Source: Owenia fusiformis
Lineage: Eukaryota; Annelida; Polychaeta; Sabellida; Oweniidae
Assembly (NCBI GenBank): GCA_903813345.2
Contig: CAIIXF020000005.1
Location: 34,785,375 to 34,849,374 of the forward strand
Direction of reading: 5' to 3'
Length of the DNA stretch: 64,000 bases
Part shown: positions 7,555 to 61,184 of the stretch, piece after piece
Layout: each line of letters begins with the position of its first letter
Numbering within the stretch: position 1 is the first letter of the stretch
Translations under genes and position numbers: made by a program
Notes under the pieces: model-generated
What the model saw: the letters and a program-made list of their open reading frames with translations, nothing else
Told to the model about the DNA's origin: nothing
Databases searched by the model: none

Positions 7555-7925
7555 CTGGATATCTCAAACTGGGAACTGGGGACTGGGGACCAGCTTAGAA
7601 GATACATACATACATATAACATAGATATCTCAAAATGGGAACTGGGGACTGGGGACCAACTTATAAGATACATACAAATACATAAATAAACACAAACATA
7701 GATATCTCAAACTGGAAACTGGGGACTGGGGACCTTCTTAAAAAGATACATACAAATACATACATATTATATATAGCATATAAATATCTCAAACTGGGAA
7801 CTGGGGACTGGGGACCTTCTTAAAATATACATACAAATACATACATATTATATATAGCATATAGATATCTCAAACTGGGAACTGGGGACTGGGGACCAGC
7901 TAAGAAGATATATACAAATACATAC
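7555..7925 (-). repeat. ~82-bp minisatellite, right arm of the 6.6-kb element
   Basis: Five units of the 2020-2575 minisatellite lie in inverse orientation (CTGGGGACTGGGGACC). Arrays in the two arms differ in copy number, showing independent expansion or contraction. Confidence 0.9.
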
Positions 7926-8773
7926 ATATATAACATGTATACAATACACATATATCTCATAAATTAAAGCATATTCATAGATATCTCAATGTAAGATATT
8001 CATGAATTATTGTTATTTAATTAACATATGCTAACTAATAAATTAATTGTTCTGTATCTAGTTCTTTATATGTATCTAGTCTATCTAATTAACATATTCC
8101 ATGCTTGTATATATCATACATATATATGAATATATATAATGATGTATGTATCTATCTAATTTGCATATTCTGTGCTGGCATATAATATATATATGCATGA
8201 ATACATAGATATATGTATGTATACATATATGTATCTATCTAATTTGCATATTCTATGCTGGTTTACATGGCCCATAAGCCCATCTAAGACTACATCGATC
8301 TGGTATTAGTTTATTTTACAATAATAGAGAAATACGATGTCAAATCAGCGCTACAGCAAATCGTGAAGAACAAAATGCTCTCAAGTCGTGGCATAATGGT
8401 ATTTTGAACAAAATATTTTAAATGATCGGTTTTTGAGAAGGGTAGTGAATTAGACCATTCAAGGGGTTATATAAATCTACAAAATAATGTTTACTTTATT
8501 TGGATTAAATAACAATTGATGACACCTCAAAGCATCAACAGGCGGCCTTTTTAGCATTATTTTCGCTGTTGGCAACGTAAATGTACATGAGATCGGGACA
8601 TAGTATGTCTGTATAATCAGCTTACTTCCTCGCTCCCTGTACTATTGAGCAATTTACATTCCTTGTACCCTGTATTGATCAACTTTTGCAACTGTGTACC
8701 GTGTACTATGACATATCAAATATTTTAAAATTTAAAACGATATTATTTACATTCTTTCTTCAACTATCATATA

Positions 8774-11700
8774 ATAGTATAGTAGGAACAAGGGGTTCCC
8801 ATGCACCCATAAGGTGTGAATAAGTTACATACATTTTTGTAATCCCTAGGGTGTCTATTTAATGAATTCATTTGTTAACATTGCCAACTAATGTCCCATA
8901 GTACTTTTATGGCGGCATTCAGTTACCATGGTTACGCATCTTTAGACATCTTACCTTGGTATCTTAAATCATTTGTAGCTCTGTCATTATTTGGTCTATA
9001 GAAATGATATTGGTACCAAATAAAACCTCGTTAAATTTCCAATAAATTTCTGATATTCAATTATGCAAATTATCTAATTTGCATAAATTATGACGTCATC
9101 AATCTATTTTTGGTTCAGAATTTCCAACTATAGCAACGTATCTATTAGAACTGAGGCCGTATGGCAAAATTTTTGAAAGGTTTTGTCCTTTATTCTATTA
9201 GTAGAAGGTATAAACAACATGAAAGTGAAAACAGATTCAAAATTGAATCAGTATTACGAAAGTTATGTAACTTTCAAGGCAGCTATCGTGAATGTCATCA
9301 TTTGACAATAATATACATACGTCTTACCTTGGAGTCTTGAATCAATGTAGCTTCGCCATTATTTGGTCTATAGAGATGATATTGGTATCTGATTAAACCT
9401 TATTCAATTTACTATATGGTTACAATATCAAGTTATGCAAATTAGCTGATTTGCATTAATTGTGACGTCATCAATCCATTTTTTGTTCAGAATATCGTAG
9501 TATAGCAACATATCTATTAGAACTGAGGCCGTATGACAGAATGTGTGCATAGTTTTGTCCCTTATTTGATGAGTGGAAGATATAAGCAACATTAAAGAGA
9601 CAACAAATCTTCAAAATTGGATCAGAATTAACAAAATTATCCAGCTTTGGAGGCAGCTACTGTGAACGTCATTGTTTGACAATTATAAAAAGAATATTAA
9701 ATTAACAAAAAAAGTAACAACCATAGTTGTTTCAATCTTATTGAGTAAAAATGTGCATGTATTGAACTGAACTAATAAGTATGTGGAAAGGTTACATGCA
9801 TTTTGACTATCATTCACAGGGGTCAAAACGGTTATCTCGACCCTGTATATTAAAGATCCAATCTTATAATTTACCATGCACTTTCAATGATACATATAAA
9901 TAGTATACATATAGTCTGATTTTCATCATATTCTTCATATTCTTGATTCTTAAAGCATCTGAAGTATATAGCATGATTAGAAGTGAAGATGATTCATCAT
10001 ATGGTTTATGTAATAATTTTAACATTTCAGATGCTATGGTAACATCACTTGATAATGAGGTTTTTACATTTCACGTTCTTAATGAGTTAAAAGGAAGTTA
10101 TTCTCCCTTTGCTTTAGAGATAAATAGTCGCATGAATTTGTTTAAAATATTATAACTTAATCAATTTAACCCCCCCCTGACAGCCCCCATATTTGAAGAT
10201 TTTGGTGAAACCTGGCAAAATACATTAATTATTAGGTTCCAGAAGCCCCCAGAAGCTATATGATGGCCCCCAGTGGCCCCAAGAATCTATACAGGGGCCC
10301 CAAGTGGCCCCCAGAAGCTACACTGTGCTCCCAAGAAGCTATATGTTGGCCCCAGAAGCTGAATAGTGGCCCCCAGGAGCTATACGGTGGCTCCCAGAAG
10401 CTATACAGGAAACCCTGTGGCTCCCAGGAGCTATACGGTGGCGCCCAGAAGCTATACAGGGGCCCCCAGTGGCCCTAAAAAGCTATACGGTGGCCCCCAG
10501 AAGCCATACGGGGGCCCCCAGAAGCTATACTATGGCCCCCAGAAGCTATACAAGGGCCCCCAGAAACTATACTATGGTCTCCAGAAGCTATATGGTGGCC
10601 CCCAGTGGCCCTGGGAAGCTATATGATGGCCTCCAGAAGCTAATCAGTGGCCCCCAGGAGCTATACGGGGGCTCCCAGAAGCTATACAGGGGACCCCAGT
10701 GGCCCCAAGAAGCTAAACGATGGCCCCCAGAAGCTATACAGGAGCCCCAAAAAGCTACAGGATGGCCCCAATGGCTCCCAGAAGATGTGAAGGGCCCCTA
10801 GAAGCTATACGGTGGCCCTCATAGGCTATATGATGGCCCCAAGAAGCTAAATAGTGACCCTCAGGAGCTATATAGTGGTTCCCAGAAGCTACACAATGGC
10901 CCCCAGAATCGATATGGTGGCCCCCAATGGCTCCCAGAAGCTATAAAGGGCCCCCCAGTAACCCCTAGAAGCTATACGGTGGCCCCCAGTGGCCCCGAAA
11001 GCTATATAGTGGCCCCCAGAAGCTATACAGGGGCCCACAGTGGCTCCCAGAAGCTATACGATGGCCCCCAGAAGCTATGCAAGGGCCTGCAGAAACTGTA
11101 CTGTAGCCCCCAGAAGCTATACAGGGGCCCCCAGTGGCTCCCAGAAGCTATACGATGGCCCCCAGAAGTTATGCAAGGGCCCGCAGAAACTATACGGTAG
11201 CCCCCATAAGCTATACGATGGCCTCCAGAAGCTATACAGTGTCCCCCAATGGGCCACCATATAGCTTTGGGGGCCACCATATAGCTTCTAGGGGCTACTG
11301 GGGGCCCTGTATAGCTTCTGGGAGCCATTGGGGGCCATCATATAGATTCTGGGGGCCATTGTGTAGCTTCTGGGGGCTGCTGTATAGCTTCTGGGGGCCA
11401 TCGTATAGCTTCTTGGGGCCACTGGGGTTCCCTGTATAGCTTCTGGGTGCCACCGTATAGCTCCTGGGGGCCACTAATTAGCTTCTGGGGGCCATCATAT
11501 AGCTTCTGAGGGCCACCATATAGCTTCTGGAGACCACAGTATAGTTTCTGTGGGCCCTTGTATAGCTTCTGGGGGCCATCGTATACCTTCTGGGGGCCAC
11601 TTGGGGCCCCTGTATAGATTCTTGGGGCCACTGGGGGCCATCATATAGCTTCTGGGGGCTTCTGGAACCTAATAATTAATGTATTTTGCCAGGTTTCACC

Positions 11701-29484: not shown

Positions 29485-29590
29485 TTACAGTATAAAATGG
29501 TGTAAAAAGTGGTCACTTTTCACAATCGCTGTGCAATTGATACAAGCACTCATCCTGTGATAAAAATTTATGCAAATTTAAAAAACTATA
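29485..29590 (+). promoter_or_regulatory. TATA-box core promoter and short 5' UTR of the helical-cytokine-like gene
   Basis: A TATAAAA box lies at 29491-29497. A start about 30 nt downstream would give a 5' UTR of roughly 70 nt before the ATG at 29591. A TATA promoter fits an inducible secreted protein and contrasts with the TATA-less ETS/NRF1/E-box promoters elsewhere in the window. No clear NF-kB or STAT site was identified. Confidence 0.45.
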
Positions 29591-32500
29591 ATGAATATAA
29601 CGAAGATAGTGGGTAAGTCGTATATTTTTAGTACGCATGACAACGATTTCTTTAATTAATCCTACTTTATTTATACAATGTAAAATTGTTTTTAGAAATG
29701 AATTTGTTAAACGCAGAAATGTGGATGTTTTAATGAATAATGTAAAAATTGATAAAAGCTCTTGGTTGCGAGCTCATCATTGTACCAATGAAGATGTGCT
29801 CCGTATTTTACATTGGAAATCACTTCACAATATTTATCCTTGTAATTCGGTCCTGTTCAAGCTAAAAATTAAAAATTCTCCTTTATGTGATCATTGTGGA
29901 GTAAATGACACTATTGTACATCATTTTATTAAATGTAATAAAGTCAAAGATATTTGGAATAATTTCAATTTGACAGATGAACAAATTTTAGGTCTTCAAA
30001 CATGTTCAAATTATAAAGATGTTCTCATTGCCAGAAAACAATCCAAATTTTCAACTACCACAACTATTTAGGCAATATAAAAAGTGAGTTTCATAAACAA
30101 AATATATTAAATTTGTAGAAATGTATGTTTATTTTGTATGATTGATGTTAATGTATAATTGTAAGTTAATTTTAAAGGAAAATAAATGTTTAAAAAAAAT
30201 AAAATAATAATACATAAACAAGGCATTAACATGCAAAATGACACCACCTGTCATTTGTTACAGATGCCAAACACTGTCCATAAAAGGTATGAGGCTTACA
30301 GTATGTCATCTCTTCTGGTGATGACAACAATATGAAATGTATTATTCTTATTAAATGAATAAATGAACAAGAAAATAAAACAAAACAAAAAAAAAGTTAA
30401 ATCTTATCAAATCAATAAAATATTTTTTCATGCTCTAAGTTGAACATTTTTAATAAAGATAAAATGGAATGATATAACATTATTTTTGATTTAAGCCACA
30501 TTCTTAGAATATACCGTGGGGTGTAATCTGTCCCTATTAGAGAGTTTTGAGAATTTGGTTTTATTTTTATTTTTTATCATCAAAATATTACTTTTATGAC
30601 ATCGAAACTGCGAAACTGTTTTAAAAGTTTTCCCGGGAGAGAGCCGTTTGTTTTGATCACAAACTGCGCGCCATGCAACATGACAGCATACAATGCGAAG
30701 TATATCATGTTTTTCAACGTTACTTGTCATTATATGATACTAACAACGTTTTGAACATTTTAGTGGCACTAGAAATGCCCAATTTGGGCGATTATGCCGT
30801 GATTGTAATGAAATTTTATAAACAATTTTTGAAATAAATAGTATTCATGAAAAAATACTCATTTTCTGTCCAATTACTGTCCATAGCTTGGACTGGGGGT
30901 TGTGGGGATTATTTGGCATGAAAATCATTGCTTTTGGTACAATTTGACCGGATGATGTGGGAGTGTGGTTTTGCCAAAATTTATTCAATTTTGTTGGGTC
31001 ATGTTCAATGGATTTTCAGATCTAAGTCGCTTTCGAGATATAATGTTACCTTTCTTTCCCTATTATAGCGAATAATGATACCTAGGTTATCAAAAACCTT
31101 CGTCTAATATGCCATTGTAATTCGGCTTCATATTCCTCTATTTTGCTGTTTCTTTACAGCTTTTGGTCCTTTTCCTTTAGCACTTGTACTTAGATATTTA
31201 GGTTTATTTATAAGGAAACTAAGAAAACTACACGATGACAATTAGCTGGCTTTAATTGCTCTATATAAATGAACTCTTATAATAAGTATAACAATACCCA
31301 AGAGATGAAATCAAGGTGGATTTACATGAATAACAAAAAAGTCGATCACAAGAATAAGAATGGCAGACGTATTCAGAATAATTGGACAGTGGGAAGAACT
31401 GAAATAAATTAGTTCTCAATCACCGCGAATCAGAAGAATTAAGAATGATGCTGATGCTAATTCTAATGATATTAACAAACTAGAGCGTTTACGAAAATAT
31501 GAAATAGTTCCAACTAAAATTATGTGACCTTTTAAGTCGAAAAAATAATTCAGATCATTATTGACAAAAAGTTTGTAGTGGATCAAAATGGTTACTTTGT
31601 AAAATATATTTTCCAATTATTTAACTTACAATAAGATAAAGAATGAATAACTTTAATTAATAAAACATATATTGCCCTATAGACGTACAAGAACAACTAA
31701 AAGCTCGATGGTTATTCCTTAAAATTTACCTTTGTAGACGCTTTAGTACTGCTGTCCGTCACAATCTTCCTATTTGACAGAGCTTCGTGCATACCTTTGC
31801 GTCAAAGAAGAGAACAGCGTAGTGGTCGACGCGAAGCACGAAGCAACTCTTCCACAACAGAAAGAAGTCCATCCAGCCTACAAATATGGAATGGATGTAC
31901 TGGATCCAGCGGGTCTCTAAGACATAACTGGGGACCCCGGTCGCATGCGTTTGATGACACTATATTGCGCATCACACGCTACATTATTGCCAACATAACT
32001 GGGTTTCTTCAGACGTATGTAAGTATTTCGAAATGATTATTATTGCACTCCTAAAGATAAATTATTATGTTATTATATACATTTAGTTATATACCTTAGG
32101 GTGATGGTCAACACTATATTTAACTCCGTCTGTAAATGTTCGATTTCAGAAACAGCGATTCAATGACCATCTGCTCTCTACACATATCGGCCAGCAAAGC
32201 CACCCTGTTGTGGACGCCATCAACACCAAGCTGTTAGCTGTGAGAAATAATGCAACAAATGTTGATGTAAGAATATTTAAGTACAGTATCCATACTCAAT
32301 TCAGACGTGTAATGAATCAATTTCTTATGTTCATTTAGTCCAAAACGATTTTTTATTTTTGAATCAACCAACTCTGGTGAGTGCTGTATAAATTGATCAA
32401 ATATATTTCGGAAAGTTATTTTTAGTTAATATTTCAGAAATAAGGGGGGTGGAATACATGAATTACTTATTATTTTATTTTTGCAGCTGAACGGCTCTTT

Positions 32501-33083
32501 AATCACGATTCTTGAAGCTCTTCACCAATACAAAAGCTACATGAACCATACTTACCGTAACGAGTTTGCGCGAACATTAGGAGGCCGCACTAGCAGAAGG
32601 GGTGGTTCAAGGCAATGGCGCCACACAAGAAATAAGCGAATGGTGAGGAAACGCACATTACATCGTCAAATAAGCTCATTGCTTAATCGACACGTGACAT
32701 GGCTCATTTGCAAAGTGTCTCTTTTTGCACAGGTATGTGATATAACTAATTTACTAGATTTTTTGTCAGATAACTATTGCAGATTTTTTTTAAAAACCTA
32801 AAATATTTAGTTTGGCTTCGTCTCCGCAAGAGCTAAAAACGTCTAAGGGCCATCAAACAAATGAGACAAAATATGACTTTGTTCTTAGCACCAGGGTGTG
32901 GATTTGACTGAAGACGCTCTACGTGGTATCCTGGATATCGAACACAATACACAGTTGTCCCAGGCTCTAAATGATGCTTATACTTACATCATATTCAAGA
33001 AAGTGCACGAAGGACTCGGAATCATTATGCTTTTCTTCAGAGATACGATGGATAATCGACAAACAGCAGCTGATGGTGACTGA
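29591..33083 (+). CDS. Five-exon secreted four-helix protein, IL-6/G-CSF-type helical-cytokine-like
   Basis: Exons: 29591-29612, 31738-32018, 32150-32266, 32487-32732, 32895-33083 (TGA). Donors are gtaagt, gtaagt, gtaaga and gtatgt; acceptors are tttgtag, atttcag, tttgcag and caccag. The joined frame is open for 284 codons. Exon 1 adds MNITKIV and one base; exon 2 completes an Asp and continues with a hydrophobic run, giving a signal peptide of about 25 residues ending DRASC. An RQRR furin-like site follows at residues 29-32. Predicted amphipathic helices are about 78-105, 119-168, 196-222 and 243-276. An Arg/Gly-rich loop (about 172-196) contains RNKR. Sequons are at N44, N93, N135, N142 and N160; mature cysteines are C61 and C215. 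Intron phases are 1-0-0-0 and exon 3 is 117 nt; from memory human IL6 has the same phases and a 114-nt exon 3. Intron 1 holds a LINE fragment and a broken small ORF. The gene structure is well supported. The cytokine assignment is inference; another helical hormone or a novel secreted protein is possible. Confidence 0.72.
29637..30212 (+). mobile_element. 5'-truncated LINE (non-LTR retrotransposon) 3' end with zf-RVT-like domain
   Basis: The frame 29637-30071 encodes 144 residues of the C-terminal tail of a LINE reverse transcriptase. Features are an R(I/A)LHWKSLHNIYP-type segment (about 57-68), LFKLKIKN (73-80), and a zinc-binding CDHC at 84-87 with H95/H96 and C100, followed by KDIWNN. This layout (W..L....P....LF......P.C..C......H....C) is that of the zf-RVT domain at the end of many LINE ORF2 proteins. 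After the stop comes an A-rich tail (about 30176-30212), typical of target-primed insertion. The catalytic RT and endonuclease parts are missing. It lies in sense orientation inside intron 1 of the helical-cytokine-like gene. Confidence 0.75.
31360..31527 (+). pseudogene. Small broken ORF of unknown family within intron 1
   Basis: Reading from ATG 31360, codons run in one frame to TGA 31525-31527 with a single in-frame TAA at 31405. The peptide after the stop (SPRIRRIKNDADAN, then a KLERLRKYEIVP segment) looks protein-like. A related peptide, NPNILKIKDDADAK, is encoded at 36169-36285. The family is not recognised. It may be a decayed small gene or a transposon fragment. Confidence 0.25.
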
Positions 33084-36000
33084 TTAAACATCATTCCAAG
33101 TGACCTGCAATGAGATGGTCGTGAAGTGTTGAATATGTCGACAATGTCTCTGCATGTTGGAAGTTATTTACTTATAAAGATGTCATCTTACACTAATCTA
33201 AATTCTTTTGTCGATGTTATAAGTTCTAAGAGTGTAATGACATCTATCATAAGTAAACTAAAACAGAGAATAATCTCTCAGTTTATTTGTGTAAAGAAGA
33301 ATCCCCATTTTTCATGATTGACATAGTTCGCGCCAAATTGTCATCTTTGAATGCTCGAAAAACATGTATTGATTACATGGCTAACAGAAACAAAATGAAG
33401 GATGAAAACGGTTAGTTTCTGCCGTAATTTAGCAATATTATGATTTGAAATTCTTTATAGAAGTAAAGAGAAGTGTGAGGGATATGCTTATATTAATGAA
33501 AGCTTCCCATCGATGTGAAGTATTCAGAAAATAGATGATAGAAAAGTTTAACAAAACGAAAGGGCACATAAAGGCACACTATACTTAATTTAGAAGAAAA
33601 TGGACAAAATTATCATTGAAACGCGTACTCGCACACTTGTTTGATTTGCTTAACTTTTTGAACCAAGAAAAAATAACTCACATAGAAAAAATTATTTGAA
33701 GTTCAGAGATCATTAGATATGCATGCACATGTTAAACAAAGTGCATGTTTTAAATAACCATTGCTTTAAAAGATGGCGACACTTCTATAAAAATGAATGT
33801 ATCATGTAATACAAACAACTTTGCCATCTTTCAATGACATTGATAAAAACTTGATATATAAAGCTTGACAGAATATATTTTTTGATAATTTATTGTCAGC
33901 TTTGATGTGGTCCATTTGAGCTGTTGTTGGTGTCTTTGGAAGTCTTTATTTTGCCCAAAATGTTGGAAATTTCCAAAGTGGGCCTTTAATTATGGTCAGC
34001 GTTGAACTACAGTATTTCTCATCTCATTCTTTTATCTGAGGCTTATATGAGAAAAAGAATACGATGCATGATTTAAACTGACGTCTTTCAGCTTGTATAT
34101 CACACGGAGGCTGGCCTCTATTAATTTATGAATTATTTAAGGAATTAAGAACCTGATCAAATGCTTTGTTTGTGAAATATCATAAGTGAATTGTTGCTTC
34201 CTCAACCAAGACTGAAGAATGGAGTTTATATCAAGGCTGGCCTACAATCCACGAGTGATGTATTTTACGAACAAAACATTGAGTTCAATGCTTAAATCTT
34301 TCCACACATGACAAAACAGCTTTATAAAACGAAATTGGTTTCAACTGCAGGCAGGCAGGTAGAGATCGCTGTTCCAAAAGTGTACATTTTTAGAAAGATA
34401 ATAATGGTGTTCGGTGATGAGGGTTCATTTCCACTGAATCTAAGAATAGTCGTTCATCTAGTTTAAAAATATGGAATTACATTTTGTATCAATACTGTCT
34501 TCTGATTGGCTGAAATCTCATATAACTTGTTTGGCCATGTGTGAATATTATATCTGACTTTATACTGTAAATGCAATGTGTGAATAACTCCACAGATAGA
34601 AATATATTCTAATCATTAAATCTTTACCTATGTTCATAATACGTTTTCATTTTTTAAAATATTTTTTCAATTTAACATTTGTACTAAACGTCATTATATT
34701 TGCATTGCTGCAGTTGTGAATACTACATATCTCAGTAAATTAGAAACTTCAATGAGAATTTAGCATTACAGTTTGGACAAAAATAATTGAGTCATGGATT
34801 TGCTGAAGTGAGAATTTCTCATGTGAAAAGAATTTCTAAGAGCCCATACACACGGGTGTTAAGCCACGATGATACCATGAGCACATGCTTTGAGGATCCG
34901 CGTTGTTTGAACCTACCACCGAGCTCGCTTATACACCAAGCCCCGTTACACAGTCATGATACCGCCGAGCAAGCTCATTGTATCATCGGGTCTGCTTTAC
35001 CCCCGTGATACATCAGTGGACGAGTGTATACAAAATGTAAAATATTCAAATATTGGAAACTATGGGCTTTAGTAATTGGAAATAGTGATCGACTAATCAT
35101 TTGTTTATGGTTCAAACTGTACACGATCCTTCAGAATTTTCCTTCTTAAAATATTTCAGTGTGTGATAACCTGATTAAGTGAGCAACCGATGTCAAGTAA
35201 TCAATCAATGAAATAATTTTAAACTATGGAGTCGCTTCTTACCACTGTAGCGTTCAAATAGCAATATAATTATGTAATCCCCTGAGCACTAGGGATGCTA
35301 AGTTACATATTCTTGGGTATATGATAACCTCAAGTGCAGTTATGTATAGTCGATGTCATCAGAGATGGGTAAGTGACAAGATATATAAAAGAAGAAGAAC
35401 GTTCTTAGAAACCTGTTAATATTATTGAGGAAACTGACCTTGTTATCAGCATAAATCTAGAATCAGATTGGCATACCAGTTGTTATAATGAATTAAAGAC
35501 TTTCTAGTTGAATGCTTAAAAAATTCGATTCATTCATTTTGAGATGGTTCCTTATAGTAAATACCCCCAAATACGTTTATGCATATGAAGTGCTAGTTAG
35601 TGCAATAAACAATAACTCCCTCATTTGCATAGTTTTGCTTTTTGTTATTAATACTATGTTTGATTCTCATTCAAACGGCTGAAAATTAAGATATTGAATC
35701 ACAAATTCATTTGAGACAGAGACATTTCATCGGCAACATATTGCTATTTTATGTATTACATTTTTTATTGCAAATTACAGCAAAATACTCGTTTCTAATT
35801 CATTGAGATAAACTTTAGTAGACTATATATACTCCGTTGCTCTCTTTATATTGCTAACTTTATGATGACTTTTGGTTGTTTCGATTGTAATAAAAGTGCT
35901 CCAGAATCTAAATGAATAATTTTTCTAAATACTCACAGGAACATATCTCAACATCTTTGTTATTAACAACATCTTCAATTCTGATAAATCCATTAAAATA

Positions 36001-47750: not shown

Positions 47751-47834
47751 ACAACTATAACACTACTTGTGGTCCATCAATAGAAAGGGGACAATTTCTA
47801 GAGATCATTAGTAACACCTGATGATCATACTCAC

Positions 47835-48173
47835 TTGATTTGAAAATTGTCTTCTTGATAAATCATTTCTTAGTTGAGAAACGGCATCTTCCCAGAAGGT
47901 TATGTGCTGCAGAATGTTTTTATTTTTAGACAATTTACGGGCCAATGACTCCACCGTACTAAGATCATTTGGCGAGATGCCCTCAGTCGCAACTGTCTCT
48001 TCTGCAAAGAACCCTGGGTCAAAGTCTCGTGCAGTTACGACATTGTCCTGGGTGCCTAGAGCGGCTAGAGTATCGAGAATATTGTTTGAGTTTTGGATAG
48101 CAGAACGTTTCTCCCCATCCGCTTTCGCCGTGCATCCCCACCACGGGCAAAACAATCTCTTTGGCGGAGCGTG
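47835..48173 (-). CDS. Internal exon of a probable secreted peptide precursor (C-P-W-W-G-C ring)
   Basis: On the minus strand a pyrimidine-rich acceptor (cttcatttttccag) precedes an open exon of 113 codons that ends at a consensus donor (gtgagtatg). Both ends are phase 0. The exon begins HAPPKR and continues LFCPWWGCTAKADGEKR: a short cysteine-bridgeable ring between two dibasic sites. An acidic, helix-prone spacer follows, with a second basic run (SRR) near the end. Dibasic sites plus a small cyclic motif plus acidic spacer is the usual layout of neuropeptide or hormone precursors. The four-residue ring has the spacing of urotensin II, but its FWK core is absent. No signal-peptide exon was found upstream within about 1 kb, so the first exon is missing or distant. 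A splice-flanked exon with codon-like sequence is well supported. The peptide-precursor role is inferred. Confidence 0.55.
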
Positions 48174-51100
48174 CTGGAAAAATGAAGAGATATAAGGTTT
48201 CGTTATACACGCATAAGTGATCAATCATTTTTAACCAAAGATGAGATGACATGCTAAAATGTTCTGGTATTTAGTTTTCTATAGTCTTATTGGATATTAT
48301 TTAAGTATTACTTTGGAGGTAAGCATTGTATACGTGAAATTCTAGTACCGTCAGTGTCTGGCATGACATACTTCACTGACCTACGAGCGGCATAGTAACT
48401 CGGTGAGTCAAAATAAAGTAACCCAAAGAAATGCAATTTAATAACAGTCATCCAGCATAGGTTTAAAATCATATTTGGCACAATTAGCAAGGAAATAGTA
48501 AAAGTAAATGCGAGATAAAGGAAGTAGCCAACAGGGATTAGAGGCAATACCGTAAGCACAGGGTTTCATTTAATTAACGGTGTTTCATTTGTACTTTCAC
48601 ATAATACCCAAATGCTTACAATTGGACCCTATAGAGGATTCAATCTGATGAAATGAAAAATCGAATTGGTCTCAACATTCTTTGTATTTCCAATCGTGCT
48701 TGGGAGATCAAACAAAGGTATAAGAACCATTGAATTGAACTTAACAAAAAAGGCTGCATGACAATTTAAAAATCCCTGTAGACAATTCTCAACAATAAAA
48801 CTCCAACGAAATTACTAGCATGAAACCATGTACTCTAGCGAAGGGATATAGTTCGTATCGCCCTAAACTCATATCTTCAGTGTGGTCCAGCGTTGTTGCT
48901 CCATCAGCTTGGGGAAATTAGCGAATGAGATATGAGCAGACTATCAAACGAGAACTCGAAAGTAGACCTGTTATTTATCAAAGACCACACTTTCTTTCAT
49001 GCGTGTCAATTAATCACAAAGAAGATCCCATTGTGGCGTGGCCGTGTCGATTATCTCCGACTGCAGGTGTATAATTTTCCCGGGCTTAAAATATATTCCG
49101 CTAAAAATGTCGTATGCTAAATCTCGTCTGCCGAATGCATACGTAAATTACTCTTGAATCTGATTGGATTGGCACATTATCAATTGCAATTATTTTTATA
49201 TAATGTTACGTATGCAAATCGTTTCTGCTCACACATTTTAGGGACCATGTGATTCCATGTTTTATTATCGCAGCTCTGAAATAGTAATGTGCCATTGTGT
49301 TTTTATAGCTGTCATTAAGAGAGCAACACCAGGACAACGCGACTAATAAGCCCTTTTCCTTTGGCTTATCTCTCCTAATTAATCATACTCTGTGTCCTAT
49401 TATGAAAATCTTTTATTCGATTCTGAAATTGTAACCAAATGAATTATGAAATTTGAGCTCAAGCAGATTGGCGTTGAAGTATGAAGTATTTTAATCATAA
49501 CTGAATATAGCTTGTCCTACAGTACGGATAATTATACATTAAGAGGATGATTTATCATAATGCGATTGTGAAATTAAAAAATATTGTAAACAGACGGTAA
49601 ATAAACAATTAAAAATTGCGCGGTTCGGAACGCTTAGCAAGTAACCTCAACTTTCTTGCAAATTTTAAAGCTGGCTACATTGGGTCCCCTTTGTTCTCCA
49701 GAAAACTTTAATTTATAGAAGGATTCTCTCAGCTATCATTCAAGAAATATTTGTGAGAATGGTTGTATTGACGGAAAATGTTACGAGTGAGATATTGAAT
49801 AATTTCGTTTGGGATTAATAGCAAAGAGGAAGAGATAAGCACCTGTGAAAGAATTTATTGAACGGCCCTCGTAGCTGTTGCCGCCAACACATTTCTATAC
49901 ACATATTTGTTCTTTGAATATTGGTCTTTGGCTTGCCTTCCAACTCTCTCTACTTATAGATAATTTCGTTAATTGCTACACTAGCAAACCTTGTTGACAA
50001 GTAGACCTGATGACGAATTGCATTAAAACGATACGGTCAATGTAACATTAACTTGGCTTTCCAACAAATTTTTGCTCTTGTTCATTTACCCAACCTATTT
50101 TGTTTTTAGCAAACGCAGGCATGTCGTGGGTTGATTTTATAATTGTTGGCCCCTGGTAAATCAAAATTACATTCTATCAAAATTGACAGCTTTTGATCGT
50201 ACTTTTGATGAAAATAGTGGCAGAAAATGATAATCAATATGAAATCAATACATTCATATAAAAGTTGCACATGACTCTACGGGAATGAATTACATTTTTC
50301 ACATAGCCCATTCCTCGCAAACAATTGAGTATTTTAATAGCTTTTGCACCAAAGAGCATCCTGAAAAGAAACAGTTCATTTCTGGCCTACCCGTCAGTTC
50401 CCCTCAAAGTTCCGCTCTTAAGTTGTACATAAGAGGGTAATGAAAAGACAAGAAGCCAATCTAGGTGAGACAATCACATCAAAATTCCACACATTTACAC
50501 AATTATTCTGGTAGGATCTTATTTGTGTGTTATTTCCAAGTTGGCAGTCATTTGGCTCGCTTTTGCCTCGCACTTTGTTATCTCTTTAATATAGTGCTAA
50601 TATAGTACATCAGGTGCACTAGTTATCACGGCGGATGTATATGTTAAAAGGATCAACCTTCGTTCAGGTCTGACACCCAGAAGTATAGCTCTTGGCAGAA
50701 CTTAGATTTATAGCCAACTTAAAGTCAACACGTCCCCAAACCAAAACAATATCGAGATAAAAAGCTTTATCTTGTTTTATATAATTTCTTTTGACTATTC
50801 ACTGACGCAATTCGCAGCAATTGAATAAACTTTGATATCCATAGCCTCCAGTAAAGTTGGATATCTTGCGGTCAATAACCAATTAATACTTAACATAATA
50901 CATCATATTCAAAGACTTCAAAAGCCCCAATACGAAGTTTGGGCCGGGATAACTCAAGTAACGTATCAACCTACTCAGCTATTGGTATTATTCATTACAT
51001 TTGGTGTGCCAATAAAATAAAATATTTATTAAGCCTATATTTGACAGACATGAAACCATTTTACATAGGGACGTGATGCAGTTGTGGAAACAGTTTGGTC

Positions 51101-51920
51101 GGTGTGTGAGGAACGATAACTCATCCCTCAAACAGGAGATATTTACGTTCAATTAGATTCAAACTGGCCTCGAGAGAGAAACGAAAACAGAAGCTACAAT
51201 CGAAATTAAATATTAACGCCTGATTTCTATTGACTTTTAGACCTATTATCAGTATTATTGATGTTTGATTGTCAACGTACCAATTAATTAACTATTTATT
51301 TGCATGATTTCTGTCCAAATAATTACCAACATGTTGAAGTGTGACGAATAAATCTAAATGAAAAAAGAGGGGGAGCTAGACTATTACCACCATCTTCCTT
51401 GTCAAATCATTCTTTTAAGCACTTGAACTCTGAGACATCCGTGACCAAATCATATTTATATATTCACACCACAGGACTAAATGTCACACTTTTACACCTT
51501 TCTTACATTAACCTTATATTTTCATTGGCCGAGGACGATATGCTTGAAAGGTTACAACAGAAACCAGCATTTAGATTGAAGTGAGACAATCAACAAAACT
51601 GAGAAATTGATAAGGTCTTTGCACAACCCTTTCGTCAATTGGCCTGTATAATGTATTCTAAACCGTCCATTTTCAAGCATTTTCATTTTGGGAAACTATA
51701 TTTTAGTTTATTCAGTTGCTTCATATCAGAAATTGGACTTAGTGAGCTCAAGATGGTTACAAATCGAAATTACAATTGGTTATATTGATTTTAACATGAA
51801 CGGACCCACGCAATGAGTGATTGACGCCCTTATCTTTGAAATGTCAACGGATACGTAACCCTGTGAGAATCTATGTACACAGTCAAGGCATCAATATAGT
51901 TTTCTTAACATTTCAATGTA
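48174..51920. other. Unannotated; may contain the first exon of the 48 kb minus-strand gene
   Basis: About 1 kb upstream on the minus strand was searched for a phase-0 signal-peptide exon without success. The plus frame 48932-49066 ends at a possible donor (CTGCAG|gtgtat) but has no other support. Confidence 0.35.
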
Positions 51921-52211
51921 CAAGGTGTTTCAAAACGACCGTCTCCAAAACGCAGCCAATTCTAGATAGCGTTTTTCTTTCATGTTTTGATCAAATCAAG
52001 CAAATTAATCCGTTTATAGTGATTTTAAAACGTAAATTTACAAAATATGTTCTCAATAAGCAATTATGCCAATATCTTTAATTGCAGCGAAGTCAAGTAT
52101 TGAACTTGGTTTATTATTCTTTATAAGTATATCAATATATATCATGGGTTATATCATGCGTTGTCTTTAATAGACTGTGGAGTGGGAGGTCGGTAATTCT
52201 GAAACCCCCTG
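51921..52211. mobile_element. 291-bp mariner-type MITE
   Basis: CAAGGTGTTTCAAAACGACC and the diverged inverse ending GGTTTC/GAAACCCCCTG are flanked by TA. About 19 of 26 terminal positions match. Confidence 0.5.
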
Positions 52212-52584
52212 TATTTATGCATGTATGTTCCATTCTCCAAGTCCAGTACTTTAAAAGTAAATATTTAATATTAAAATAAATATTTTCCGCTTCGTCATGC
52301 CTTGGGGTCGTTCTGTTTTCCTGAGAGAAAAGCTGTGTAGTTCTTATTACCACACCCCAGTGCAAATATATACAGGTTAAACAAACTAATTCATGTTTTT
52401 CATAGCAATCGATTCTGTTGACTTGTAAGTGCGTATTGTTCTTTTTATTTCCGCAACTAATGGTCAAATGCATAAGGTTTCTTAGAACTGAAAAGATACG
52501 ATTTGGATTACGGTAAACTGATGGGGATTGTTTTATGAGCTAAATCGTGTTCACTGCTGTTTACAATGAAATAGTATAAAGGCT

Positions 52585-53060
52585 TACATATGCCGATTGG
52601 GCGAAATCCCACTTGCCCCAACAAGTCCGATCCCGACCGATATTACCGGCATCACCGTCAGCTTCTAGTCCCGACGTGTCCTATCAAGTACCACGATGCC
52701 CCATGGAATCTCGTTAACTTTACCCCATCGAGTCCCATCGAGTCCCATCATGCCCCACGGGAAATGATGATTTAGTAAAAAAGGCTTCGATGCGGCCATT
52801 TTGATCTCAAGCGAGTCGACGTCACATGGTCAAAAGTCCCACAATGCCCCATGGAAAGAATGAACATGTTCGGCTTCGTAGGGCGTGGCCCCATATTGTC
52901 CCATCAAGTCCCATTGAACTTCATGGGGTAATTATAAAGTCTCACGGAGTTCAATGGAGTCATTTTGGGCAAAGCCTCATTTTTGCTTGTCCATGTATAA
53001 CTCGGCCAGAAGAATCTCAAAGTTATTAATAATAGGTCCTCCGTTGACAATGCCCCATTA
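52585..53060 (+). repeat. Degenerate CCCATCAAGTCCC / ATGCCCCATGG repeat tract
   Basis: GC-rich, locally repetitive sequence has many GTCCCATC(A/G)AGTCCCAT and ATGCCCCATGGA words. Open frames here are compositional. Confidence 0.5.
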
Positions 53061-53597
53061 TTTCTCTTTCAGCTGACATCACAAAAATTATGAAAATGAA
53101 AAATAAGAAATAGCGAAATATGAATGATTGTACACTTTTCCGGGCAAAGTCAAAGCAAAAATATGTCGGGTTGCATCGAACGCCTGCACGTTTGTCAGAT
53201 TGTGGGTTCCCTTCAACCCATTTTAAAACGCAAGCACTAGGAGGAAATTATGTATTTACATTTGTAAGACACGCACTATGGTGAATAACTCGTCATTTTT
53301 AAAATTCCAAGATGCAACGTTAACGCATCTGGAATAGTGTGAGATTATAGAGACTTGCAAATGGGAATATTTTCTATATGCGTCGCCTCCAATCGAGAGC
53401 TGATTCTTAACAGGATTTGATGACATTAGTGAATCTCTCTTACTGGCATTAACGACTATCTGGATCAATCTAGATATTTCGTATGACATGATCAACGTCT
53501 GGGCGTCTCTTGATTAAGGTAGGCAAAGTAAAATGAATAATCTTGATAATTGTTTTATGTTTGAAATATAGGCTTCTCATTGTATTCCTTTGACTTA

Positions 53598-54472
53598 CAC
53601 TCCCCTCCATAAGTTTGGCAACCTTTTTCCCCCATTGAACTACGTGTTAAAGCCTCTTTACCTTTGAATTTTTATTTACTTAACATGCGATGAAAATATT
53701 TATACTGTTAATGGAAACGTAATTTGACTTTAATTCCAATACCTCCAAATTTTCTCAATTTTTTTCCTCAATCACAATATGTCGAAAATTGATGATGAAT
53801 TTGATGAATTTTTGAAAATCGACATTCCCATGTTAACCAATGGGAAATGGTAGGTTTGCCGCAAGTCATATGACAGAATATCCATCCATCCGAATCCTTG
53901 CAAAAAATACGAGTTAGGCACGTAATTGAATTTGCTAACTTTATTTAACAAAAAATTGATATGTTTCTTCAGGTTCAACAAAGTTATAGGGCTTTAAAGT
54001 CAAAATTGTTTTTCAAAAAACCTCTCCCATTGAAATAACACAGGAGGCGAAAAATAATTTTCAAAAATGACTTTGAAGCGCTGTAACTTTAATATTCATC
54101 AAATAAACTAAACACTTAGTGTTCAAAAAAGTTAGACAATCCAATTTTCTATATGAAAATATTTTTTGCTGAATCTTTTACTGAAAAAATATCCTGATTT
54201 CTGATTTGCCCTGAACCCTCCATTTCCCATTGGATTACATGAGAATGACGATTTTCAAAAATTCATCAAATTTATCATCAATTTCCGACCTATTGTAATT
54301 GAGGAAAAAAATTGAGAAAATTTGGAGGTATTGGAAATAAAGTCAAGTTACGTTTCCATCAATATCATAAGTTATTTCATCGCCGGTTAAGTAAATAAAA
54401 ATTCAAACGTAAAGAGGCTTTAACACGTAGTTCAATGGAGAAAAAAGGTTGCCAAACTTATGGAGGGGAGTG
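53598..54472. mobile_element. 875-bp TA-flanked palindromic element
   Basis: CACTCCCCTCCATAAGTTTG and CAAACTTATGGAGGGGAGTG ends are flanked by TA. The arms match for several hundred bases (TTGAACTACGTGTTAAAGCC; ATTCATCAAATT). A Tc1/mariner-type nonautonomous foldback. Confidence 0.8.
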
Positions 54473-55623
54473 TATCTTTTCAAAATTGGAAAATGGTAAA
54501 CAGTTCCAATTTCTACGTAGACTAGGTGTAGTTTAATGAAAGTGTCCAGCGAACCCTTCTGATAAAGTCCACTCTCAATCAGATTATTGAGTATAAAATT
54601 GTGACAAAATTGTTTTTTCCAGGATTAAATGAAAGCATCAATATTCCTTACAAAAATATCTCTAATTTTTTACCCTCAGGGTCACTTAGTTACTGCGAAA
54701 TGCCAATGGGGGTTAAGCTACTGCAGGTTGCAATCAGTATAGTTTCTGGATGAAGATTGTTTTGGATTGATTTGGCTTTTTATTTGATTATCATTGTAAA
54801 ACCTGATATACGATATCCCCTAACACAAACAAATAGAAGTAATAAATTCATCTAATTCGCAATTGGGAACAATCAATTTTATTACAATTCTCGAGTGACA
54901 ATCTTTTATTATCTAAAATGTAAGATCCATGACTTAACACGTGCCTTTAATTTCCTCTGCAAATTGGTAGTCTATCTGTCGTTTCACACAAAACAACACG
55001 CGCTTGATATCTTACCACATGTCGGTGCATGTGATATCATATGCTCGATTGGAATTTGATCACTTTTGCCATTTGACCACGTTTTGTCTCACCGAATCGT
55101 TTGCATTATATATACATGTACCTTTGCTGACTGTAAGCTTGTGTCTTAGTACTTTGACTCATTTATTGGAACTCCCGTATTTCGATAAATCAGTTCACGG
55201 TACACTTCTTGAGATGAAAACGAAATAGCAGTGACTTTCACTACCGTCGTGGGCTCTTCTGCTGATATTTATGAAGATACCATGCGATGATATCCATTGG
55301 ACTGATTGTCGCATTAGTTTGAATGCCGATATACCAAAAGGCATTATACCGAATGAGGTTAAGACCTCCTCACACATGAAAAAAGCCCCTCCCCCTAGTC
55401 AACTTGCGTGTACTGGCGAATACGACTTGAGTCCTTCCCATTTTAACGCTGTACATCGTTGGGGTGTTCGTATGCGGAAGAACCCTTTCGGAAAGCTTCG
55501 GTCGACTTCGGAAGAATGCGCAAGGTAGCGTTATCCTTCTAAATCGCCAGAATTGATAATTTACCCATTTCGCACTTTGCTGTTGCGTTTGGTGGATTCG
55601 TTTACATATGTGGCCAAAATGCC

Positions 55624-55700
55624 GTAATACGTCACTTCCGCTGAAAAAAGTAGTTTTAAAAGATGAATGTCAAACAGCGTATTAATTTTGGCTTCATTTT
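55624..55700. promoter_or_regulatory. ETS-CRE composite promoter motif with possible short first exon
   Basis: ACGTCACTTCCG at 55629-55640 reads CGGAAGTGACGT on the minus strand, the known ETS/CREB composite found in bidirectional housekeeping promoters. More CGGAAG sites lie at about 55475 and 55514. On the plus strand an ATG at 55663 opens MNVKQRINFGFIF before a possible donor (gtaaattc). The gene is not identified in either direction. Confidence 0.3.
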
Positions 55701-55889
55701 TGTAAATTCCAATTTCTGGCGGCAGAGAGAGGAGGTAGTGTCGCAAGTATTATTTCAAAAAGTAGATGTTTGACCCCTATTTAGTTAGTCTCAAAATGCA
55801 CCTTTAGACATTGCTTTTGAACCTCAGATAGGGCAAAGGGGCCACATAAATCCATATCTCGAGATAAAAAGTTACCTGCTATTCCTTAG

Positions 55890-56005
55890 GTAACTCATTT
55901 AAATATGAATATTACCTGACACTCTTCCATTCATATTTAGATGAGTTGGTCATAAAATACTAAGTTAATCCGGTAGCCGACAGGCGTTAGTTGCATTCGC
56001 GAATA
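55890..56005. mobile_element. MITE copy B, inverted, related to 13783-13938
   Basis: It contains GGTAACTCATTTAAATATGA and ends TTAATCCGGTAGCCGACAGG then CGTTAGTTGCATTCGCGAAT. The opposite terminus is missing or diverged. Confidence 0.55.
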
Positions 56006-57944
56006 CATTTAAGCGATCGAGTAAAGTAAGTTTACTCGGCGGGTAATACGAATTGGGAGTTTTTTATTTTAAACCCTGTTTTCAGCTCGGTTTTCCTGAC
56101 GTTTTGAAATTTAAGACGCAAGAATTAGTAATTTAACTAAGGCTTTCATTTAATTGTAACAAATATTCGTGTTTCAACGATTTATCCCCAGCGTGGTACA
56201 AAAAAGTAAAAACATCTGGGAAAACGTAAAAATTGATCACTGCAAAGGTAATGTGTGCATAACATATAGCCTGTTGTATTTATTACATGTAGTGTAGAAC
56301 CCCATTGCTTGATAAATAGCAAAAAGATCTCCTACCTCAAAAGTGTATCACTTCAAAAAATTCAAAAAACACCTAACAGATTTTACCTTACCATGTGCCT
56401 ATTCATTTAGCGATTTATTTGTAAACTTTCCCATGAAAAAAATTCGAGAATTAATAAATTTTCCAGCAGATATCGTCTTCCTCTTCACATCACTCATTTT
56501 GTACAATTTACAGCCGTGAATGATGGAGTTAACAGAAATATTCCAATACTTTTAGTGTCCGATATAGGCTCTTAGGCCGAAATGTCAGCGGTCATTTTGT
56601 GTCTTTGAACGATAATCAATCCTTCTTTATGAATCCCACTGTTAAAAGATAATTAGTCTAATTTCATTAAAGATAATTAACATAGGCAAAAGGTCCATTT
56701 AAAATTACGATTTCTAAAATATATTAACAAAATGATCCCTTAGCACAGATTATTGTATTAAAACGTACGATGACTTTATTCCAATAGACATTTGATGGCC
56801 GATTCACACAAAGGAATCACGAGAGACGCTTCTTTTATCACATATGTTTGCACTTGATTTATCACAATAAGTTATCACACGTGACGACATAATATTTCAA
56901 TTTTTATTTTTACTCACTTGTCAAAATAATTAGATAATTGAATTTTCATTCTTTGGAGAAAAAATGGGGTCTTAACAAAAATTTGGTTATAAGATTTTGC
57001 ACAACTCTATTTTGACAGTACTTGTGAGTTAAGGCACATTGGTTCAATGTACGAATATAATGAATGTATACTTAACATTATCATTTGAATCACGTTTTAA
57101 TCACGGTACCACTACGCCGACAAGACCACTAGGCATACTAATCTAGTGTTTACTCCATTGTTTTAAGAGTTGTCTCGATTGTTGAAAGCTTAACAGATTT
57201 CGAAAGCTTTGATGAAACATTTAATCAGCAAATGCTAATTTGGCTTCTTGTTGCAAATGAAGCATCTTGCCTTCTAACTCATTTATCAAATAACAGCCAC
57301 TAAGGACATCTTTTGACACTGCACTACTAATCTTTACAGCGACAACTGTACATGGCGGCATGTAATGGAATATTTGCTCAATAAAAGATCATTAAAGTAA
57401 TTCTATAATTTAAAGGCTTGCATTAACAATGGATCTGACCGACGACACTGTTGTGAATGATGTCACACTGACTTTCTGAAATGGCATGCGCCTTTGAAGT
57501 TTTATTGAGCACGAAACACCTCTCAGGTGTAAAATGTATTGTTAAAGTCCCCATGTAAAGTTTGAAAATATGTTTTTTAATTCATATACTATTTGACATG
57601 ACTAAAAAAGTAATTTTTGAGATTTTTGAAAAAAAGATTTTTTGAAAAAAAGATTTTTTGAAAAAAGAGTTGTCAGCTTTTCATTTTTCAATTATTCACA
57701 TTTCCAGCCATTTTTTAAATAAAGCTGTTGTCCATCATCAAATATCTCAAATGCAAAGATTGACCAAAGGACACGGTATTTCAATAATGAAATGTCATCT
57801 AATGCGTCATTTCAATGTTTTAGCATATCAAAAATATTTTGCAACCTAAGTGACCTCATCAGGTCCATGTTAATCTTTTCTAAATAAGCTAAACTTCAAA
57901 AATAAACCATTGTTGATAGTCTAACCAGGTTAAAAGGATGAATA
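56006..57944. other. Unannotated AT-rich stretch
   Basis: It contains an A/T-run repeat of GAAAAAAAGATTTTTT at about 57627-57665. No gene is supported. Confidence 0.4.
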
Positions 57945-59038
57945 TGCAGGGTGTCCGGAAAGTAAAGATACAAATGCTCTCATTTTGAGAGATGTACCTG
58001 TTATGAGATGAAATTGCTCCAGAATGTAGAATGATATTATAGCAATATATCCTGCAATGGTCATGACTTTTAGTTTTAAAATGAAAAAGTTATGGTCGTT
58101 ATGGTAACGGGAGTCGAGGGTATGTGGAGCAACGTCACAAATGTGTTTTTATAAATCTCTTTCCTGCTCATAACATCTTGGCATTCTACCATCTATTCCC
58201 ATATTACATCAAATAATGTACTACAACAGTATAAGTATTAATACTGTAACATTATTTGATCTCTTTATATAACTACTATCATTGAATATTTAATATTTTC
58301 CCCATTATCTAAACATTTTTGGTGCATCTTGACCGGCGATTCAAAGACTTGACAAAATCATCGCTGTCCGTCTCTCAAATTGCTGATAACATTGACTTCC
58401 AGCTGAGACTCATTTTGTATGTTGAACTTCTTAAAAATATTGCTTTCAGATGGTCATTAGGTGGAAGTCAAGAAATGCCCTATCAGGTGAATATGGAGCA
58501 TTGTATAGAAAGGTTTAATGTCAAGACAATCCATTGTAAGAATTGTTTTTTTGCTTTGTGAATCAGTGTATTATAGAATTGCAATATTGACTTTCCAACT
58601 AATCCAGAGAATGTTTTTTCTAAGCACTTTTATGATATTTCTTTGATTATACTGGTTAGTGACATAAAATAGTTCTGATATGGAACGATGACATCATTAA
58701 ATAAAAGACAAAACTAAATAAAAGACAAAACTATGGCAGTAATAATCCAAACAACAAACAAAGCAAAACATTGATAGAAAATACAACAAAAATCACTGTT
58801 TCAGATGGTTGTATTTTAGCAATTTTTGATGTTTTAGTGATGTTCTGGAACTGCTCCACATACCTCTCACAGCCGTAACCATAACAACCGTAACTTGAAC
58901 ACGTTAAGACTATATGTGATGAAAGTTGTTAGATATATTGTAGTTATCTTTCTCTACAATCCGTAGCAGTTTCATTTCAAAAGACCTAAATCTCTTAAAA
59001 TAGGAGCATTTGTATCTTTACTTTCCGGACACCCTATA
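57945..59038. mobile_element. 1.1-kb mariner-like element, complete
   Basis: AGGGTGTCCGGAAAGTAAAG and its inverse (CTTTACTTTCCGGACACCCT) bound arms of about 190 bp, TA-flanked. The internal frame 58319-58561 shows no transposase motif. A solo end of the family lies at 27057. Confidence 0.7.
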
Positions 59039-61184
59039 TAATTATGTTTTAAATATTATTGTACCATCGATGTCTATGAGGACTAAAATTATGAAATGCA
59101 TTTTTTTCTCTGAATCATTTTCATGCATGGCTGAGTTCATTTTCTGCAAAAATCATGTGAGAATGAATGCTATATGCATTGGTGTGAATTAACGCTTAAT
59201 AAAATATACGTTGTAGTATGATCTCTAAAAGTTCGTTTTCAATAAATTCACGATTTTTCGGACAAAAAGTACTTCAAAAACCACCTTTTGCTTTTGAGGT
59301 TAAAAAAAGTTTCACATATCACACATTGGATAAGACTACAATATAAGGCAAAGTGGTTTAAACTGTACATGGGTGTGTTTAGACTAATCGGTCAAGTCAA
59401 GTAACTTAGTCAACATTCAATATTCGTATGTTCATCAGTATTTACTAAGAATGGTGCCATAATTGAAGTAAAGCTCTTGTTTATTATTTTCAATAAACCT
59501 ATCAGCAAACGTGTAAATGATAATTTTGATGTTCTGTTACATATTGGTGAAGCAATCTTGGGGAAATGGCCTAAATTTCTGATTTTCTACAGTGTCCCTG
59601 TATACCCCTACTTCAAAAGACGTATGTAAATTGTCATTTTTCATTATGAACCAACCATAAATGTATTTTTTCTTGTTTACATACAGAATGAACTTTCTGT
59701 TTTTGAATATTGCCAGATGGTACTGCATTTATTTGTTCATAATAGGGAGCAAACAAATGCGTGTCAATTTACACTGTAATATCCTACATACTTATATTTC
59801 AAGGGTAGTATTGAAGAATAATCAAGAAAATCCATGTTTTCAATTGGATTCATCCTTGTCAAAGAAGGTAAATGAGGATATGCGGTTTGAAAAACTAACA
59901 ACATGTTTCAATTTCTTACAATTCTTGGTTAAAACAAATAATTTGAAAGTTGTGATTTCGAATGTAATATCCTACTCAATGAAATTTGTTGATATTTGTG
60001 AATTTTTTCTTTCGGAATGCACATTGTTGGATCACAGAAACTTGCCTTGTTCGAGATGCACGAAAAGTGTATTGTTAATACTTGACGTCGTTCGGGTATT
60101 TGGATGTGTTTGACGTTTTCGTTAATCTCCTACCACTGTAACTTCCAACTTAATTTTTGGAAGCCAAATGTGATAGTCACAAATTGATATTTAAATCACA
60201 CGTTTATGCATACATCATGTGTGTACGCCTATGGTTTGGCCATTTATCTTAAGAGATAGGCCTATTGGCCGATATTTAGGTTTAGATTAGTACAAGACAT
60301 GTTTGTTTGCCGATTGTGCATCTTGTGATTATCATCATTTCACTATTCAAAGATGTACATGGGTTCCAACAATGCATTGGTGCGTTCCCAATATTCAGGG
60401 ATCACAGCGCAGCTCTGCCAACGATGCAGCTCACGTTTGCCTTTGGCTTCGGCTGCCAACGATGCAGCCCACGTTTGCTGCCAACGATGTAGCTTTCGTG
60501 TGCCTTCGGCTTCCGTTCAATGTGTTATTGGAGGAAGACTTGCATACTTGTACTCCCCGACCACAAGTACACATATGCAGTTGGTCGCTTCAATTCTCCT
60601 ATCTAGCTTGTACCCAAGACTTCGTCCATCATATCAAGCGACACGTCGCGGGATCACACAAGCTCTCAATCAAGTAATCCAATCAATCGATCCATCGTGA
60701 TCACACCCCGCCAATATCTGCAGCCTGGGATAGAATCCGAAATATTCTCCACATAACATTGTGAAAACTAAATATATAATACCTCAAATTAAGCAACATA
60801 GCATTATTAATGCATGGTTCGAAGATGGTGGCCTGATGTTTGAGCAGTTAGAGATGGCGCAAGCCTAAATCCCCCCCACCGGGGTATCTGCAGCCTGAAT
60901 TTTCAGAACCTATTATTTTGCCTTTCCCTAATGAATTATTACCTAAAAACACTACATTCGAACCTCTTTTGATGTATGAGGTACCCAAATGATTTTGGCA
61001 TCACAGGGCAATGAAACGAAGATTTACAAAAAAATTGTCTAAACTTGTTATGTTATGTACAGATACTTTTCAATGAGCACCAAAATTAAGAAACTTTTTT
61101 TTCGATCATTTCTATTGAGTCTTTGAATACTAAATTTTGACAAAAGTATCTCTGTAGGCCCTTATTGGGGTATGTTGTAGATAC
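59039..61184. other. Mostly unannotated stretch
   Basis: The 150-codon plus frame 59661-60113 is the longest nonrepeat frame here. It is AT-rich with no motif, so it may be a decayed coding segment or chance. Confidence 0.3.
60410..60500 (+). repeat. CCAACGATGCAGC short tandem repeat
   Basis: Three CCAACGATG(C/T)AGC units with (C)ACGTTTGC(C/T) spacers occur. They explain the overlapping open frames at 60303-60700. Confidence 0.5.

Follow-up and report, generated by a model that had tools for sequence, protein, structure and literature searches.

A 2026 BLAST survey of 18 metazoan phyla and subphyla located IL-6 family ligands in vertebrates only, traced IL-6R-like receptors back to molluscs, and left open what activates those receptors in invertebrates (PMC13203501). 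IL-12-type receptors are suggested to predate the molluscan period or to date to it (PMC12162339). Two systems can be likened to the present case by description only: that of Drosophila, where the secreted Unpaired proteins are described as ligands of the gp130-like receptor Domeless (PMC13203501), and that of amphioxus, from which, outside the vertebrates, a growth-hormone-like helical hormone of class I is reported that is partnered by a class I receptor and is low in identity to the other class I cytokines (PMC9010856). Class I ligands are thus not entirely without precedent beyond vertebrates and insects, although the amphioxus hormone differs in coming from a chordate and in being described as growth-hormone-like. 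A review on immunity in annelids and bivalves does not mention IL-6 (PMC9756803), and no class I helical cytokine from an annelid or a mollusc was found in the literature searched, which comprised titles and abstract openings, with most subscription journals outside its scope. The gene described here lies in a 64,000-nucleotide stretch of the genome of the annelid Owenia fusiformis (contig CAIIXF020000005.1, positions 34,785,375 to 34,849,374; hereafter the window, from whose first base positions are counted), and probably encodes a secreted cytokine of the long-chain class I type.

In vertebrates, long-chain class I cytokine genes have introns in phases 1-0-0-0 and a very short first coding exon. 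The candidate gene is laid out on the plus strand of the window as follows.

29491..29497, plus strand: TATAAAA element, a possible core promoter, about 94 bases 5' of the start codon
29591..29612, plus strand: exon 1, 22 nucleotides (nt), with the start codon and the first 7 residues of the predicted signal peptide, ending in phase 1 at GTAAGT
29613..31737, plus strand: intron 1, phase 1, guanine-plus-cytosine (GC) content 0.289, containing a remnant of a long interspersed nuclear element (LINE)
31738..32018, plus strand: exon 2, 281 nt, with the remainder of the signal peptide, a propeptide-like stretch and, at its 3' end, putative helix A
32150..32266, plus strand: exon 3, 117 nt, flanked by phase-0 introns, with the putative A-B crossover loop
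32487..32732, plus strand: exon 4, 246 nt, putative helices B and C with a basic loop between them
32889..33083, plus strand: exon 5, 195 nt including the stop codon TGA, putative C-D loop and helix D

All four introns are of the GT-AG type, in phases 1-0-0-0, and their donors match the consensus at 7, 7, 6 and 8 of 9 positions, in order. An earlier note on this DNA had described a five-exon open gene with a 22-nt first coding exon that ends in phase 1 at a GTAAGT donor, followed by three phase-0 introns, and this structure is borne out by the sequence, with no stop or frame break over the joined exons (29591-33083). Only the residue count has to be corrected: the product was given as 284 residues, and the exons, of 7, 94, 39, 82 and 64 codons, join to 286. 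An alternative acceptor AG 9 bases inward, with exon 2 starting at 31747, would give 283. The TATA box cited in the same note is present at 29491, but it is weak evidence because the heptamer occurs 21 times on the plus strand of the window. The LINE remnant within intron 1 (29700-30071, plus strand) carries a zf-RVT zinc finger (5.6e-6; 27.4 bits against a cut-off of 27.5).

Human IL6 has 6, 64, 38, 49 and 55 codons in its coding exons, and GH1 has 3, 54, 40, 55 and 65. With vertebrate genes of the IL-6/G-CSF type the candidate shares five coding exons, the 1-0-0-0 phases, a tiny first coding exon, an exon 3 of about 38-39 codons (39 here), and the placement of putative helices B and C together on a single exon, with D on the last. 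The IL6-type plan proposed in the earlier note stands as a description of the architecture, with a helix pair on exon 4 and a helix on exon 5, and is not established as a subfamily label. Unlike genes of the IL-6/G-CSF type, the candidate has a longer N-terminal extension (the 94-codon exon 2), a B-C loop that is basic and carries an RxKR site, a single cysteine pair outside the signal peptide, and no detectable family match. In LIF and oncostatin M, a disulphide links the N-terminus to helix C, and the candidate's Cys61, before putative helix A, could pair likewise with Cys215 in putative helix C.

The signal peptide, split over exons 1 and 2 as had been claimed, can be read by eye as a short N-region, a hydrophobic DALVLLSVTIFLF core and an RASC cleavage region, from which the protein is predicted to be secreted. 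It is followed in exon 2 by an Arg/Ser-rich, propeptide-like stretch. The only cysteines are at residues 25, 61 and 215; Cys25 falls at the likely end of the signal peptide, so that one pair is left outside it, formed by Cys61 in exon 2 and Cys215 in exon 4. Six sequons (residues 2, 44, 93, 135, 142 and 160) are candidate N-glycosylation sites, the one at residue 2 lying inside the signal peptide. Sites of the RxK/RR type occur at 29-32 (RQRR, exon 2) and at 188-191 (RNKR, in the basic B-C loop of exon 4).

Evidence for coding function goes beyond the open frame. The GC content is 0.43-0.47 in exons 2-5, 0.32 in exon 1 and 0.27-0.32 in the introns and flanks. As a reference, 25 kinase loci from this genome (out of 144 matches) have coding parts that average 0.426 (range 0.343-0.497) and locus ends that average 0.341; exons 2-5 fall within the range of the kinase coding parts, and the contrast with their surroundings is beyond chance. 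A two-state GC model that received no splice-site input, with rates of 0.45 and 0.30 chosen after the exon GC was known, called 17 segments of the complete window as GC-rich, together 14.7% of its length. Two of these, 31737-32015 and 32483-33160, correspond to exon 2 and to exons 4-5, respectively, and both edges of exon 2 are placed within 1-3 bases of the predicted splice sites; no segment was called at exons 1 and 3. By a codon-usage score trained on 3,424 kinase codons of the same genome, the predicted frame is the best of three for each of exons 2-5, partly since the other frames contain stops, and exon 1, with its 7 codons, scores slightly higher in another frame (1.0 versus -1.5 for the predicted frame). 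Ranked against 563 segments free of stops from the rest of the window (a background in which there are tandem repeats and perhaps genuine exons), exon 5 is 5th, exon 3 is 12th, exon 4 is 66th and exon 2 is 82nd; exon 2 is the weak link of the model because its codon score is only neutral. A genome search with the candidate protein gave 4 matches at E<=10 (2 candidates scored), all of them exons of this gene. This indicates a single copy, and no paralogue was found in the 498,259,871 bases on 525 contigs, although weak ones could escape such a search. Taken as a gene, the locus is very probably real.

The four amphipathic helices proposed earlier fare unevenly. Folded alone with a single-sequence model, exon 4 forms helices at 2-31 and 43-81 of its 82 residues with a loop between them (mean predicted local distance difference test score, pLDDT, 72.5; predicted template-modelling score 0.31), and exon 5 forms one helix at 6-63 of 64 (pLDDT 80.5), the pLDDT values being the best of five models in each case. 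Amphipathicity itself is marginal, as the hydrophobic moments of the four proposed helices were reached by 153, 123, 207 and 267 of 2000 shuffles, barely setting them above shuffled sequence. The models fit helices B, C and D and are silent on topology; helix A and an up-up-down-down bundle are presumed.

A class I cytokine receptor is predicted elsewhere in the same genome, on contig C1.

C1:39,089,500-39,125,200 (loci L035-L039), minus strand: gp130/LIFR-type class I cytokine receptor gene, with D1, D2 and fibronectin-type pieces

Its D1 is formed by two minus-strand exons (39,125,145-39,125,022 and 39,124,217-39,124,054) with AG/GT borders that join in frame. The joined D1 matches three Pfam families over their cut-offs, LIFR_D4 best (6.2e-9, 36.4 bits), followed by EpoR_lig-bind (6.6e-7, 29.9 bits) and IL6Ra-bind (2.7e-6, 28.2 bits); among solved structures it matches gp130 best (4.1e-6), then CRLF1 (9.6e-6) and the prolactin receptor (2e-5). 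The LIFR_D4 match is a further likeness on the LIF side. About 11 kb past D1 on the same strand, an exon-like stretch reading YTIAIRCKPKQGLYWSEWKNS appears to form the end of D2, with the motif RCKPKQGLYWSEW and a WSxWS-like YWSEWK at 39,113,059, and its matches to solved structures are modest (prolactin receptor 0.001, IL-31RA 0.0017, gp130 0.007). Fibronectin-type pieces follow along the same strand at about 39,100,300 (under cut-off), 39,092,900 (over) and 39,091,700 (under). The D1 profile over cut-off, together with a WSxWS-type motif in D2, points to a class I receptor, and the order of the pieces matches gp130/LIFR, with the joins beyond D1, including that of D1 to D2, being presumed. 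With gp130, LIFR and CRLF1 it shares the C...CxW pattern of D1, the RCKP...YWSEW of D2 and the fibronectin-type pieces; it differs from them in having WSEWK instead of WSxWS, and the C1 gene is traced in part. A strict scan for WSxWS-type motifs gave no good D2, and the C1 D2 was found by a looser one. Searches of the genome with IL6Ra-bind returned three places, none over cut-off, and with EpoR_lig-bind six, all single exons under cut-off, of which the best is the C1 place and three were inspected by sequence. Nothing receptor-like was seen at locus L005. Possible further D1-like exons lie at C9:7364505-7364648 (minus strand, L006; LVPSYPKNLQCALVNATAVKCMWERP..., with fn3 and IL6Ra-bind both under cut-off) and at C5:17430210-17430338 (minus strand, L034; ICFDKHSETGTCYWEGGKDRSGPG..., EpoR_lig-bind 2.4e-4, under cut-off), the latter with no match among solved structures (PDB).

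Downstream components are also encoded. STAT_bind is over cut-off on C1 and a FERM_F1 exon, which we take to be a JAK-type domain, is over cut-off on C3; a search with Jak1_Phl reached only E 0.06. The worm thus has the receiving end of class I cytokine signalling, and with these parts in place a ligand is to be expected. The presence of the receptor, the STAT and the FERM exon is the strongest, though indirect, support for reading the candidate as a cytokine.

On balance, the candidate is probably a helical cytokine of the long-chain class I group that is secreted and acts on a receptor of the gp130/LIFR type, with fold, binding and signalling presumed. This reading is built on the gene structure, the composition, the helicity of exons 4 and 5 when folded alone, the class I receptor, the STAT and the JAK-type FERM exon. 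Removal of the signal peptide would yield a mature, glycosylated, all-helical protein that is secreted and folds as an up-up-down-down bundle, in which helix A would come from the end of exon 2, the A-B loop from exon 3, helices B and C from exon 4 and helix D from exon 5. The ligand would cross-link gp130/LIFR-type receptors of the same genome at the cell surface, and this cross-linking would start JAK-STAT signalling. A bolder proposal, which we hold tentatively and with some doubt, is that the gene encodes the first spiralian long-chain class I helical cytokine to be found, the ligand of the worm's own gp130/LIFR-type receptor, with an intron pattern inherited from a cytokine gene of the protostome-deuterostome ancestor; the protein may also be cut by a furin-like protease at RQRR and RNKR to give two chains held by a Cys61-Cys215 bridge.

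A number of results weigh against the cytokine reading. No Pfam family matched the candidate protein at E<=10, and among solved structures in the PDB no related one was found, with only a SNARE at E 1.4. A search of the genome with an IL6 profile found nothing, a null that shows little because the controls were equally silent, and one scan of viral contigs also returned nothing. A likeness to human IL-6 by local alignment (z 3.16 with BLOSUM50; 27 of 3000 shuffles as good) was considered and rejected as out of register. That z of about 3 is not counted as support because the alignment pairs the wrong helices, placing the candidate's helix A on IL-6 helix B and its B on D; the value falls to 2.63 with BLOSUM62, 2.13 with BLOSUM45 and 1.38 with PAM250, and only the PAM250 alignment sets helix B on IL-6 helix B, before C on D. 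When CSF3, EPO, GH1, CLCF1, CNTF and LEP were aligned in place of IL-6, z ranged from -1.39 to 0.41. Exon-matched sums are at best marginal over the three comparisons made, with z of 2.02 for IL6 (p 0.031), 1.07 for GH1 (p 0.152) and -0.24 for EPO (p 0.6); the known pairs themselves give 2.83 (IL6-EPO), 1.61 (GH1-EPO) and -1.28 (IL6-GH1). At such distance, sequence cannot decide the family. The five models of exon 5 range in pLDDT from 80.5 down to 48.0, and single-sequence models may over-predict helix. Within the propeptide region of exon 2, at 31780-31917, another frame scores better, and neither AATAAA nor ATTAAA occurs in 33084-34600, the first being at 34615; rarer poly(A)-signal variants are present downstream, such as TATAAA at 33173. 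On the receptor side, the D2 piece by itself matched no Pfam family, and the receptor's presence in the genome does not make the candidate its ligand. The cytokine interpretation of the earlier note is supported by gene architecture and by a gp130/LIFR-type receptor; no family match backs it, and its subfamily label is not established. With weak exon-matched scores, IL-6/G-CSF has no clear advantage over an affinity of the growth hormone, erythropoietin or LIF/OSM kind.

These points bear on several other explanations. It is unlikely, though to be taken seriously, that the gene encodes a genuine helical, secreted protein with a role other than that of a cytokine (for example an orphan effector, an egg-coat protein, or an antimicrobial protein with a basic segment) and that the 1-0-0-0 pattern is coincidental. 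The missing family match and the basic, low-complexity stretches of the protein would suit such a protein, and a phase-1 intron in a signal peptide and runs of phase-0 introns are each common; yet exon lengths, phases and helix placement jointly fit the class I plan, and the same genome holds a class I receptor without a known ligand. The exon chain itself could be wrong, some exons being coding and the joined protein nonexistent, whether through another exon 1, another frame of exon 2 or decay of the gene. The neutral score of exon 2 with its better-scoring alternative frame, the lack of a standard poly(A) signal nearby and the difficulty of proving 22-nt exons without RNA speak for this, but the probability is small, given that the five exons run without a stop or frame break, that composition edges coincide with the splice sites of exons 2 and 4, and that the frame favoured at 31780-31917 is closed by stops at both ends.

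Within the cytokine reading, and counted as a share of it, a hormone nearer the growth hormone/prolactin or erythropoietin branch than IL-6/G-CSF is distinctly unlikely. Exons 3 and 5 (39 and 64 codons) are as near to those of GH1 (40 and 65) as to those of IL6 (38 and 55), both D1 and D2 of the worm receptor also match the prolactin receptor, and a growth-hormone-like hormone is reported from amphioxus (PMC9010856). Neither of two opposing points is decisive: the exon-matched score is lower for GH1 than for IL6, and exon 5 holds no cysteine (0 found), whereas the growth hormone family has C-terminal disulphides. A class II cytokine or interferon-like protein has only a very slight probability, even though an oyster interferon-like protein with class II helical-cytokine structure is reported in a table of a review (PMC9756803). 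The candidate's first intron is in phase 1, where a class II gene would be expected to have phase-0 introns. The preferred account remains that of a long-chain class I cytokine, and the earlier observation is partly confirmed, in its gene structure and with its length corrected.

Other features of the window and genome are recorded in their own right. At 47808-48224 (minus strand), a GC-rich, exon-like open reading frame contains KR-LFCPWWGC-TAKADGEKR, a Cx4C ring between basic sites that resembles a neuropeptide precursor, with a likeness to somatostatin/urotensin; Pfam gave it no match over cut-off, no signal-peptide exon turned up in a simple scan of 48200-60000, and CPWWGC was not found in the literature searched. 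A long 21-bp minisatellite (GGCCCCCAGAAGCTATACG-like) at 10236-11659 is open in several frames and mimics coding sequence. Degenerate TTAGGG-like repeats at 61457-61907, within an array of 398-bp tandem repeats (61330-62604), resemble interstitial telomeres. Related tandem arrays of about 81-82 bp (CCCCAGTCCCCAGTTCCCAGTTTGAGATATC and its complement) lie in opposite orientation at 2007-2568 and 7559-7936, about 5 kb apart. Elsewhere in the genome, Eryth_link_C (haemoglobin-linker) domains over cut-off are clustered on C6; this family, which we take to be annelid-restricted, was matched in one of 14 control genomes, under cut-off, and makes an annelid source very likely.

With a candidate of vertebrate-type gene plan and gp130-type receptor, JAK and STAT parts in one genome, the question of the invertebrate ligand becomes directly testable. 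If the cytokine reading is true, long-chain class I cytokines with this gene plan would predate the protostome-deuterostome split.

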